The translations under genes were made by a program, and so were the position numbers. From Paenibacillus sp. DCT19 (GTDB taxonomy: Bacteria; Bacillota; Bacilli; Paenibacillales; Paenibacillaceae), in NCBI RefSeq assembly GCF_003268635.1, contig NZ_CP029639.1, positions 2,987,501 through 3,051,500 on the forward strand: a stretch of DNA of 64,000 nt. The letters run 5' to 3'. Shown here in pieces: positions 13,581 through 37,945 of this stretch (positions within the stretch are counted from its first letter, which is position 1; each line of letters opens with the position of its first letter). The notes beneath the pieces were generated by a model. That model saw nothing but the letters and a program-made list of their open reading frames with translations. It ran no database searches and had not been told where the DNA came from.

Positions 13581-14038
13581 ATGAGAAAAGATGAATATTT
13601 TATGCATAAAGCTATTGAGATTGCACAACAAGCCCGTCAAAGGGAAACGAACCTTTTGGCGCAATTCTGGTTAAGGATGAAGAAATCGTCATGATTGGTG
13701 AAAATAAAATTAATACGTTTTGTGATCCGACCCATCACGCCGAAATTGGACTTATACGAAAATTTTGTTCAGAGCATCACGTATTTGACTTAAGCGAATA
13801 CACTTTGTATACGAGTTGTGAACCATGCGTAATGTGTTCCGGAGCGATGGTATGGTCTAATCTGGGTAGACTTGTGTATAGTGTATCCCATGATCAATTG
13901 GCAGAAATTGCTGGCAGTAACATTATGATCTCTTGTGAAGAAGTGTTTGAGAAAAGTCCGCAACAACCTGAGGTTGTAAAGGAATTGCTCAATCGTGAAG
14001 GGCTGAAAGTATTCGAGGGTTACCAATTCCATGTATAG
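13581..14038 (+). pseudogene. Nucleoside/cytidine-type deaminase, frameshifted
   Basis: ATG 13581 (GGAGG 12 bases upstream) starts MRKDEYFMHKAIEIAQQAR, then breaks near 13639-13641. Adding one A to the AAA there would give QKGNEPFGAILVKDEEIVMIGE and run to the stop at 14038, about 152 residues. Zinc ligands are visible: H-A-E in HHAEIGL and the P-C-x-x-C box in CEPCVMCSGAM. This matches CMP/dCMP deaminase-fold proteins such as guanine or tRNA-adenosine deaminases; the exact substrate is unclear. A sequencing indel is the likeliest cause of the break. Confidence 0.85.
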
Positions 14039-14164
14039 TTTAATGGCCTCTCCAAATTAATTTTAAATTATACCTTGATTTTTTCGGAAACGTCTGATAG
14101 TGTAATACCTGTGATTTTGGAAAGTTGATTTATCAATATGAATTAGAGCTTTCCAGCAGATAAA

Positions 14165-14340
14165 TTTGACCACTTCCACCAGGAAGTTAAGGCCATACGG
14201 ACAGCCGGGTCAAACGCCGATTGGCAACTTATGTTGCCTTATTGATTGAGTTCAAAGCTCAAATTTTATAAGTTGGTTACTTTACAACCAGTGCAATTGC
14301 ACATCAACTTGTGAAACGGTCAATAAGAGTGGTAAAGGCG
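14165..14340 (+). ncRNA. Candidate structured RNA upstream of the polyamine operon
   Basis: Nested helices can be drawn over nearly the whole segment. Module 1: TTTGACC 14165-14171 with GGTCAAA 14208-14214, enclosing ACTTCC-ACCA-GGAAGT (14172-14187) and GGC/GCC (14191-14193, 14204-14206), a three-way junction. Module 2: CGCC 14215-14218 with GGCG 14337-14340, enclosing GGCAAC-TTAT-GTTGCC (14223-14238) and TTATTGA 14239-14245 with TCAATAA 14320-14326. The latter contains TTGAG/CTCAA (14246-14262) and AAGTTG/CAACTT (14270-14310) with two inner hairpins, including GTGCAATTGCAC. I do not recognise a known family. Strand and extent are inferred from the downstream operon. Confidence 0.45.
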
Positions 14341-14371
14341 AATTATTTGCTATATAGACTCTGATCCAATA

Positions 14372-14515
14372 TTGATATACATGAAGGAGCTTTCCGCCAA
14401 AGGAGTTCTTGTGAATTTTTTTGGTCAAGGAGACTTCACGTCTTATTTATGATGTATATCAACAAGCAAGTGTGATGATGCGCAAACATGCGGCATTTTT
14501 CACCTTGCTTTTTTT
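14372..14515 (+). promoter_or_regulatory. Candidate attenuator leader with terminator
   Basis: A perfect 11-base stem, TTGATATACAT (14372-14382) with ATGTATATCAA (14452-14462), encloses three AAGGAG words (14384, 14400, 14427) and a possible 13-codon leader peptide. It is followed at once by an intrinsic terminator: AAGCAAG 14464-14470 with CTTGCTT 14504-14510, GTGA/TCAC and ATGC/GCAT inside, then T-run 14509-14515. The arrangement resembles leader-peptide attenuation. The next gene starts 108 bases later. Confidence 0.5.
14411..14452 (+). CDS. Possible 13-residue leader peptide
   Basis: AAAGGAG at 14399-14405, spacer of 5, GTG start at 14411, peptide MNFFGQGDFTSYL, stop TGA 14450-14452. The stop lies exactly at the first base of the right arm of the 11-base stem, so a ribosome at the end of the frame would block that stem. 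This is inferred only from geometry; a GTG-started frame of this length could occur by chance. Confidence 0.3.
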   Translation: MNFFGQGDFTSYL

Positions 14516-14622
14516 ATTGTATCAGTAGCGGGTGAACGTTGCATAATGAAACAATACAATCTGTGATGGCATGGAATCGTACAAAAAAAACAAACCTACA
14601 TATGGGGATAGGAGAATGAAAA

Positions 14623-15861
14623 ATGGGAAAAGCACTAATCATCGGCGCCGGCGGCGTTGCTTCTGTGGCAGTACACAAATGCGTTCAAAATAGCGAAGTT
14701 TTTGAGGAGATCTGTATCGCGAGTCGTACAAAATCCAAATGTGACGAACTTAAAGCGAAGCTGGACGGCGGCAAAACAAAAATTACAACAGCACAAGTTG
14801 ATGCGGACAATGTTGACGAGTTGATCGCGCTGATCAATGAAGTTAAACCGGATATCGTCATGAATCTGGCTTTGCCATATCAGGATCTGACGATCATGGA
14901 TGCTTGTCTTGCAACGAAAACAAACTACATGGATACAGCGAACTATGAGCCAGAAGATACAGCAAAATTCGAATATAGCTGGCAATGGGATTACAAAGAG
15001 CGCTTTGAAAAAGCAGGCATCACTGCACTGCTCGGAAGCGGATTTGACCCTGGCGTAACTGGCGTATTCTCTGCATATGCCCTGAAACACTATTTCGACG
15101 AGATCGAATACATCGACATTCTTGACTGCAATGGCGGTGACCATGGTTATCCGTTCGCAACAAACTTCAACCCTGAGATCAACATCCGTGAAGTTTCAGC
15201 TAACGGAAGATACTGGGAAAATGGTGAATGGATCGAAACGAAGCCAATGGAAATCAAGCGTGTCTATGACTTCAAAGAAGTTGGCGAAAAAGACATGTAC
15301 CTGTTGTACCATGAAGAGTTGGAGTCCTTGGCGAAAAACATTCCTGGTCTGAAACGTATCCGTTTCTTCATGACATTTGGTCAAAGCTACCTGACTCACT
15401 TGAAAGCATTGGAAAACGTAGGCATGACTTCAATCGAACCGATTGAATATGAAGGTAAACAAATCATTCCTTTGCAATTCTTGAAAGCAGTATTGCCAGA
15501 TCCAGCATCTCTTGGACCACGTACAGTGGGTAAAACGAACATCGGTTGTATTTTCAAAGGTAAAAAAGATGGTCAAGACAAAACGTACTATGTGTACAAC
15601 ATCTGTGACCACCAAGAGTGCTTCAAAGAAGTTGGTTCCCAAGCGATTTCTTACACAACAGGCGTTCCAGCAATGATCGGTGCAGCAATGGTTATGACAG
15701 GTAAATGGAATAAACCAGGCGTATTCAACGTAGAAGAGTTCAACCCAGATCCGTTCATGGAAGAACTGAACAAATGGGGTCTCCCATGGGTAGAAGACTT
15801 CAACCCGGTATTGGTTGATGAGCTGCCAGAAGAAGCAAAAGAATCGGAGCTTGTTCGTTAA
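14623..15861 (+). CDS. Carboxynorspermidine/carboxyspermidine synthase (saccharopine dehydrogenase family)
   Basis: A 412-residue protein with an N-terminal Rossmann motif, ALIIGAGGVASVAVHK (G-x-G-G-V), followed by the saccharopine dehydrogenase catalytic domain (TALLGSGFDPGVTGVFSAYA, GQSYLTHLKALENVGM). It is directly followed by nspC, the defining partner. Known: the enzyme reductively condenses putrescine or diaminopropane with aspartate semialdehyde to carboxyspermidine or carboxynorspermidine. The ribosome site GGATAGGAG lies close to the ATG. The upstream 450 bases hold the structured leader. Codon use is strongly biased, suggesting good expression. Confidence 0.93.
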   Translation: MGKALIIGAGGVASVAVHKCVQNSEVFEEICIASRTKSKCDELKAKLDGGKTKITTAQVDADNVDELIALINEVKPDIVMNLALPYQDLTIMDACLATKTNYMDTANYEPEDTAKFEYSWQWDYKERFEKAGITALLGSGFDPGVTGVFSAYALKHYFDEIEYIDILDCNGGDHGYPFATNFNPEINIREVSANGRYWENGEWIETKPMEIKRVYDFKEVGEKDMYLLYHEELESLAKNIPGLKRIRFFMTFGQSYLTHLKALENVGMTSIEPIEYEGKQIIPLQFLKAVLPDPASLGPRTVGKTNIGCIFKGKKDGQDKTYYVYNICDHQECFKEVGSQAISYTTGVPAMIGAAMVMTGKWNKPGVFNVEEFNPDPFMEELNKWGLPWVEDFNPVLVDELPEEAKESELVR

Positions 15862-15862
15862 A

Positions 15863-16990
15863 ATGCGGTTTGAGCAATTACCGACGCCGTGCTTTGTTGT
15901 TGACGAGAGCCTGATTGAGAAAAACCTGAAAATCCTGAACGGGGTTATGCAGCGTACAGGTGCCAAAATTGTGCTTGCACAAAAGGCGTTTTCCATGACT
16001 GCGATGTATCCTCTCATTGGAGAATACCTGAGTGGTGCGACAGCAAGTGGACTGTATGAAGCACGTTTGGGTCACGAAGAAATGGGCAAGGAAAACCATG
16101 TCTTTGCGCCAGCTTACCGTGCAGAAGAGATCGACGAGATTATTTCGATCTGTGACCACATCATTTTCAACTCATTTTCGCAGCTTGCGAAATTTAAGGA
16201 TAAGGCGCTTCAGGCTGGCCGCAAGGTTGGTTTGCGCATTAACCCGGAATGTTCAACCCAAGAAGGACACGAGATCTATGATCCGTGTTCTCCGGGTTCA
16301 CGTTTTGGAGCTAAACAAGAGGATTTCCGAGCAGAACTGCTCGAAGGAGTATCGGGACTGCATTTCCACACATTGTGTCAGCAAAACTCCGATGATCTGG
16401 AGACAACACTGAACGCAGTGGTAGAAAAGTTCGGTCAATGGCTGCCACAGATGGAATGGATTAACTTCGGCGGTGGACACCATATCACGCGTGAAGACTA
16501 CGACATTCCAAGATTGGAAGCTTGCATTAAGCGTATGCAGAACGATTATGATCTAGAAGTATACCTGGAGCCGGGGGAAGCCGTTGCTCTAAATGCAGGT
16601 TATCTGGTTACTTCTGTCCTGGATTTCCACAAAAACGGCATGGATATCGCCATTCTGGATACTTCAGCTACATGTCATATGCCAGATGTACTTGAAATGC
16701 CATATCGCCCGCCGTTGATCGGTTCGGGAGAAGTGGGAGAGAAAGCGCATCTGTATCGTCTGGGTGGACAAACCTGCCTATCTGGTGACGTTATTGGAGA
16801 CTATTCATTCGATCAACCTTTGCAAGAAGGTGACCGCCTCGTATTTGAGGACATGGCGATCTACTCCATGGTGAAAACCAATACGTTCAACGGCATGCCG
16901 CTGCCAGCTATTGCAGTCAAACGAAAAGATGGCGATTGCGAAATCGTACGTGAGTTCGGATACCAGGATTTCAAAACAAGATTGGCTTAA
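15863..16990 (+). CDS. nspC: Carboxynorspermidine decarboxylase
   Basis: A 375-residue fold-type III PLP enzyme of the alanine racemase/ornithine-decarboxylase-like group. The PLP lysine is in IVLAQKAFSM near residue 38. Other hallmarks are LHFHTLCQQ, NFGGGHHI, the EPGEAVALNAGYLV phosphate-binding strand, and DTSATCHMPDVLEMPYRPP. It decarboxylates carboxy(nor)spermidine to (nor)spermidine in the cytoplasm. The start at ATG 15863 falls one base after the synthase stop, so the genes are coupled; an in-frame ATG at 15815 would overlap and lacks support. The operon ends at the terminator at 17061. Confidence 0.94.
   Translation: MRFEQLPTPCFVVDESLIEKNLKILNGVMQRTGAKIVLAQKAFSMTAMYPLIGEYLSGATASGLYEARLGHEEMGKENHVFAPAYRAEEIDEIISICDHIIFNSFSQLAKFKDKALQAGRKVGLRINPECSTQEGHEIYDPCSPGSRFGAKQEDFRAELLEGVSGLHFHTLCQQNSDDLETTLNAVVEKFGQWLPQMEWINFGGGHHITREDYDIPRLEACIKRMQNDYDLEVYLEPGEAVALNAGYLVTSVLDFHKNGMDIAILDTSATCHMPDVLEMPYRPPLIGSGEVGEKAHLYRLGGQTCLSGDVIGDYSFDQPLQEGDRLVFEDMAIYSMVKTNTFNGMPLPAIAVKRKDGDCEIVREFGYQDFKTRLA

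Positions 16991-35347: not shown

Positions 35348-37945
<2,598 letters not shown>

Follow-up and report, generated by a model that had tools for sequence, protein, structure and literature searches.

The window, the whole 64,000-nucleotide stretch of Paenibacillus sp. DCT19 DNA that was analyzed, contains two polyamine biosynthesis genes preceded by a long structured leader, all on the forward strand. The first gene (14623–15861, +) encodes a carboxynorspermidine synthase-like protein (CANSDH) whose match to NCBIfam NF043000, at 418 bits, was below the model cut-off of 800. The second (15863–16990, +) is nspC, for carboxynorspermidine decarboxylase, which matched TIGR01047 above the cut-off (487.8 bits) and whose start at 15863 was chosen within an ORF of 15815–16990. 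These genes, an 11-bp perfect stem (14372–14382/14452–14462) and an intrinsic terminator (14464–14510 plus a U-tract) had all been proposed in the first-pass annotation and were confirmed here. Its possible leader peptide did not hold up: the frame was broken within the genus (L019, L020, L024, and L026) and absent outside near relatives (63 loci, up to L063). A weak promoter candidate, TTGATT and TAGTGT separated by 17 nt, is located at 14075–14103 (+) and has 7/12 matches in the window. Most relatives had a promoter 5' of the element, with at least 9/12 matches within 100 nt 5' of P1 in 49 of 64 relatives (24% of shuffles) and at least 10/12 in 40 of 64 (4% of shuffles).

Analyses of fold energy against shuffled sequences (200, 200, and 100 shuffles for the three segments) indicated that the leader folds beyond chance. 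The z-scores were −3.4 for 14155–14345, −4.5 for 14345–14520 and −6.6 for 14155–14520, and no shuffle folded as well in any segment (0/200, 0/200, and 0/100, respectively). Elsewhere in the window there is a guanidine-I riboswitch (RF00442, 4498–4598, +, 88.2 bits). There is also a match to ncr1015 (RF02449, 35150–35275, −) that, at 64.1 bits, is just above the gathering score and lies antisense to the intergenic stretch preceding an ORF of 865 aa (35348–37945, +), which looks like a PEP-utilising/rifampicin phosphotransferase-type protein.

A cmscan search of the window identified RF02440 (SpF59_sRNA, ldcC RNA) at 14167–14220, with 73.5 bits against a gathering score of 37.2, and no other Rfam match in 14000–14640 at E ≤ 5. 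The earlier statement that the leader matched no known riboswitch class thus needs qualifying as to 54 nt that belong to a catalogued family, and it stands insofar as RF02440 is filed as an sRNA and represents a fragment only. Side-by-side reading of relatives showed that conservation runs from the P0 hairpin to ACUCUGAUC, well beyond Rfam's 54 nt, which constitute one accessory domain (P1a) of a ~250-nt element (~14117–14365) followed by a ~150-nt expression platform. The extent of 14160–14516 given at first pass was therefore too short, as P0/S1 and the 5' strand of P1 place the start of the conserved element ~40–50 nt further upstream.

RF02440 was present in one copy in the strain's own genome (6,667,063 bases), in which no second copy of the element was found. 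It was identified in 57 of 75 genomes of the genus, 93 of 295 genomes in the family sample, 31 of 398 in the class sample and 18 of 398 in the phylum sample; among 14 control genomes only Lactococcus lactis had a match. A pattern derived from the 3' core strand matched at least 118 stretches in genome contigs, and among the matches listed were Paenibacillus, Bacillus, Neobacillus, Heyndrickxia, Streptococcus, Acetobacterium, Blautia, Faecalibacterium, and the Negativicutes Acidaminococcus and Phascolarctobacterium. A core model, R1, identified 24 of the 398 phylum-sample genomes, which comprised all 18 RF02440-positive genomes and six more; the 11 loci read from this search all adjoin SpeD, Lys/Arg decarboxylase or CANSDH genes.

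The P1a domain was recognized in 160 of 193 loci by a simple motif test. Among the 33 loci without it were minimal clostridial forms, in which P2 directly follows P1, loci whose P1a loop is of a variant type, truncated contigs, and one chance match (L101). At its gathering score RF02440 misses the minimal forms tested, including L083, L097, L098, L100, L107, and L190, and when 25 distinct relatives were scanned only RF02440 and one tRNA reached Rfam gathering scores. The family is named after a pneumococcal sRNA and at the gathering score misses the loci of S. pseudopneumoniae (L130) and S. oralis (L086). In seven loci of Bacillaceae type (L091, L118, L147, L155, L159, L166, and L194) the conserved P1a loop CAUACGGACA gives way to a shorter loop containing CGGU, with the rest of the element kept, which may represent a variant contact or specificity.

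For the comparative analyses, 192 loci remained of the 193 with the core pattern after L101, which lies inside a coding frame, was dropped. The ACTCT motif was in place in 163 of these, 158 also had the P3 anchor and 146 also had the P1 partner; as this last filter dropped 12 of 158 loci, the alignments described below (A1 and A2) are biased in favor of loci that have P1. The 146 loci were reduced to 70 non-redundant ones based on shared 7-mers, and to 66 after removal of L085, L113, L117, and L135. Alignment A1 comprised 45 of the 66 loci, those with the full architecture and no long inserts, and A2 comprised 54. Streptococci fell mostly outside this selection and were examined apart (10 loci).

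In the window the element begins with the P0 hairpin (14118–14155; GGAAAG at 14119–14124 with CUUUCC at 14149–14154), which was kept in relatives by eye and was weakly more stable than shuffles (−7.3 versus −5.3; 11 of 64 in the lowest 5%). Strand S1 (14131–14142) is made up of the hairpin's 5' part and loop. The 5' strand of P1 (14155–14163) is the pseudoknot partner of 14343–14351, and is followed by the P1a domain (14166–14213), supported by Rfam and covariation, with pairs 14166–14171/14208–14213, 14172–14177/14182–14187 (a hairpin) and 14191–14193/14204–14206. The P2 hairpin (14223–14238) had two-sided changes at five of six pairs. P3 (14239–14245/14320–14326), assigned from alignment A1, encloses P4 (14246–14251/14257–14262), P5 (14264–14273/14307–14316), P6 (14275–14279/14285–14289), and P7 (14291–14294/14299–14302). 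P8 (14327–14330/14358–14361), nearly invariant, encloses the 3' strand of P1 (14343–14351). All of these features, and those of the expression platform, are on the forward strand.

Three other pairings were considered for this region and set aside. Most relatives have no GGCG for the pairing of ~14214–14217 with 14338–14341 (GCCG/GGCG) seen in the single-sequence fold. An AGU/GCU hairpin placed by RNAalifold inside P8 competes with P1, which was preferred for its two-sided changes, and a GCCGA:ACGGU pairing was considered by eye.

The first-pass annotation had called for a covariation analysis among relatives, and this supported the fold and added the P1 pseudoknot, which had been missed. In A1, 94.4% of cells were paired in the proposed structure. 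Two-sided changes were found at 27 of 65 pairs, compared with 13.3 in shuffled (0/500 as high) and 13–21 in slid controls, and in 132 cells, compared with 34.2 (0/500) and 26–56, respectively. P1 itself, in an alignment made without reference to it, had 19 two-sided cells versus 4.5 in shuffles (0/500), and its count of pairs with two-sided change (three) was not above shuffles (75/500). Because A1 came from loci with a P1 partner, P1 was retested in 88 loci not selected for it. The best complementarity there was 18.9 versus 13.7 when shuffled (p = 1e-14, uncorrected for phylogeny like all p-values here), and 0 of 15 shuffles were as high in 45 of the 88 loci. The earlier description of 14165–14340 as nested helices accordingly stands for the folding beyond chance and fails for the topology, since P1 forms a pseudoknot with P8. 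P3, P5, and P8 are nearly invariant in relatives, so their pairing is outside the reach of covariation; this near-invariance suits what would be a ligand-binding core, and the conserved letters are concentrated in the multi-helix core. On these comparative grounds the 5' leader is predicted to hold a structured, conserved aptamer backed by covariation.

The predicted expression platform comprises S2 (14365–14382), which can pair with S1 (through 14365–14377) or with S3 (14452–14462, through the 14372–14382 stem), and the intrinsic terminator (14464–14515, −21.2 kcal/mol), whose 5' arm carries CAAGUGUGAUGAUGC. The two long-range pairings are mutually exclusive. The energy of native S1:S2 duplexes was −15.7 kcal/mol compared with −11.7 when partners were swapped between loci and −11.2 when shuffled (p = 7.7e-9 versus swapped; 64 of 66 loci), and in a first test the native pairing outdid every one of the 20 swapped partners in only 6 of 64 loci. 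For S2:S3 the values were −11.4, −7.7, and −8.1 kcal/mol, respectively (p = 8.4e-10 versus swapped; 57 of 60 loci, the gap being too short in three).

Of the 146 loci, 144 had a called terminator. Its 5' arm in the non-redundant set (n = 65) contained CAAGT in 38 loci and CAAG in 48, and ACTTG in none. The CAAGU motif complements the core strand ACUUG, which is the 3' strand of P5 and whose CUUG is invariant in A1, and the complementarity often extends into P7. The background consisted of 194 hairpins with T5+ and at most −14 kcal/mol, taken from the anchored loci numbered L083 and higher, and was set against 66 element hairpins from 58 loci, of which a few are possibly not the terminator (one lies upstream). 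In these contigs CAAGT was in 39 of 66 element arms and 0 of 194 other nearby terminators, CAAG in 52 of 66 and 4 of 194, and the looser CA[AG]G in 55 of 66 and 26 of 194.

In the window, 14298–14312, in the 3' strands of P7 and P5, can pair with 14466–14482 of the terminator arm (15 pairs, 2 bulges). Sixty loci were used to assess this antiterminator after terminator calls that were inside a gene, weak or unclear (L083, L084, L097, L118, and L152) were dropped. The energy of native duplexes was −12.9 kcal/mol versus −11.0 for swapped ones (p = 1.8e-5; 42 of 60 below swapped) and −6.5 for shuffled ones (p = 8.6e-12; 59 of 60 below). The difference from swapped partners was significant in the loci of non-Bacilli type (p = 3.1e-6, n = 41), whereas loci of the Bacilli type, the window's own, were no better than swapped (p = 0.26, n = 19) because their terminators resemble each other. 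Among the ten loci of streptococcal/lactococcal type the match of CAGGAUGA to UCAUCUUG was good in three; in the other seven, 18–40% of shuffles matched as well, and the match in the pneumococcal group was weak.

Folding of the window transcript to 14488 gave −114.3 kcal/mol with P3 and P5 forced, a state carrying P1 and S1:S2, and −108.4 kcal/mol with the antiterminator forced, a state carrying P0 and S2:S3, so that the two differ by 5.9 kcal/mol before the terminator is completed. With the complete terminator the values were −132.8 for the aptamer state and −114.5 kcal/mol for the antiterminator state; all of these energies exclude the P1/P8 pseudoknot, ligand and kinetics. The two helix sets are thus mutually incompatible, and a ligand that stabilizes the aptamer should favor termination. 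Together, these pairings point to an expression platform with mutually exclusive states, as expected of a riboswitch.

The relatives were gathered solely on the basis of RNA sequence, and their gene context was examined separately, as the nearest match among ten reference proteins, a procedure that would overlook any small unrelated gene lying before that match. The nearest reference gene downstream was a polyamine gene in 197 of 205 loci (CANSDH in 92, the Lys/Arg decarboxylase family in 69, SpeD in 34, and PotA in two). One further locus has a P-II gene followed by PotA/PotB, and seven are contig ends with at most 216 nt. Wherever enough sequence was present (198 loci), genes for polyamine synthesis or import thus came next on the same strand, their matches starting 73–514 nt past the core strand (median 270), while upstream neighbor genes varied between loci. 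The 205 loci are redundant, with many from Paenibacillus and at least two genomes present twice (L047/L191 and L048/L189); the association also holds in named contigs (tally L083 and up). Pfam and NCBIfam searches were consistent with the gene types, with the CANSDH of the window and PotA and PotB examples falling under some equivalog cut-offs. The P-II family gene (PF00543) is in one clostridial contig (L164, 1557–1952, −), between the RNA and the PotA/PotB importer genes, an arrangement in which a P-II/polyamine-transport link is possible. In L010 and L011 (G023 and G017) the CANSDH match ends at residue 400 of 412, with one TAA counted, which suggests a shorter C-terminus. Within the genus, the 57 RF02440-positive genomes had CANSDH of 89–100% identity. 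Of the 18 negative genomes, judged by RF02440 and not by R1, 16 had a diverged CANSDH (76–77%) and two had none at E ≤ 1e-60; the lineage with the diverged protein may regulate the operon another way.

The fold, the exclusive pairings and the gene association are each supported by comparison among relatives, and we consider it very likely that the element is genuine and conserved and attenuates polyamine genes in cis. The first-pass suggestion of a new riboswitch or attenuator for polyamines is well supported to this extent; direct ligand binding, the identity of the ligand and the OFF direction are what we infer beyond it, the direction because it fits feedback on synthesis and import. Our reading is that ~14117–14515 is probably a cis-acting, transcription-terminating OFF riboswitch, likely for spermidine or a close polyamine. 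The aptamer would fold on binding this ligand, with S1:S2 closing, P1 forming its pseudoknot inside P8, and P3, P5, and P7 forming. As the 3' strands of P5 and P7 would then be occupied, the terminator at 14464–14515 could form and transcription would stop. Without ligand, P0 and S2:S3 would form and 14298–14312 would pair with the terminator 5' arm (14466–14482), allowing RNA polymerase to read into the CANSDH–nspC genes. More broadly, we lean towards a new, widespread Bacillota class of spermidine (polyamine) riboswitches, with a pseudoknotted aptamer of ~120–250 nt and a terminator that mimics P5. The proposal that the choice between aptamer and antiterminator falls to a single conserved strand is part of that class-level reading and is put forward with the same modest preference.

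The gene that comes first varies from lineage to lineage (CANSDH 92, Lys/Arg decarboxylase family 69, and SpeD 34 of 205), so several intermediates could serve as ligand, and the same attenuator might sense agmatine, putrescine, cadaverine, lysine/arginine, decarboxylated SAM or MTA. We regard this as rather unlikely, since both routes have spermidine as their common product, spermidine is also a substrate of the importer, and three loci precede PotA/PotB, a position that suits a polyamine more than an amino acid or decarboxylated SAM. That a protein or ribosome, rather than a small molecule, chooses between terminator and antiterminator appears less probable again: long conserved leaders can bind proteins and a leader peptide had seemed possible, but its frame is not conserved, the conserved letters are in the multi-helix core, and the spread across distant Bacillota would demand one conserved regulator.

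RF02440 is of Rfam type 'Gene; sRNA', and its pneumococcal representative (F59, srn235) appears among sRNAs in table rows seen in PMC3395615, PMC12323649, and PMC4387999. Its 54 nt equal the P1a domain of our element (14167–14220), but it is without the P2–P8 core, P1 and the expression platform. A trans-acting RNA would be expected to have no constant downstream gene; polyamine genes followed in 198 of 205 loci, the other seven being contig ends, with the same strand in all 198 informative loci, varying upstream genes and a terminator arm matched to the core. A trans-acting sRNA, as filed, is therefore very improbable, although the terminated ~400-nt transcript could additionally act in trans, and the free-standing structured RNA considered in the first-pass annotation is disfavored by the constant downstream genes. 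PMC10853860 describes SAM-I-variant spermidine riboswitches as OFF switches terminating transcription before ldcC, speE, and speB, neighborhoods that overlap those found here. These variants have a SAM-I fold and are called rare there, whereas no SAM-family match was found in 14000–14640 at E ≤ 5 or above the gathering score in 25 relatives, leaving membership of that group a vanishingly small chance. The potE (WRC-18-1) motif is likewise a structured RNA before a polyamine-transport gene and a weak riboswitch candidate. By the account in PMC8632094 (section 18) it differs in being confined to Veillonella and environmental sequences, in covarying poorly and in having no evident expression platform.

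Among PMC articles (a scope that leaves out subscription journals, preprints and supplements) we found no paper on the element as a riboswitch, and a term search in the accessible text of PMC11109978, PMC6429828, and PMC7266159 gave no match. The introduction of PMC10853860 refers to many, mostly unpublished, attempts to find natural spermidine riboswitches, with only the rare SAM-I variants reported. If the preferred reading of a spermidine-responsive OFF switch is correct, Bacillota, gut and oral species among them, would have in this element a major RNA sensor of polyamines, and a listed pneumococcal sRNA would gain a clear role as a leader. It would also make testable how RNA recognizes a flexible polycation that binds RNA non-specifically.
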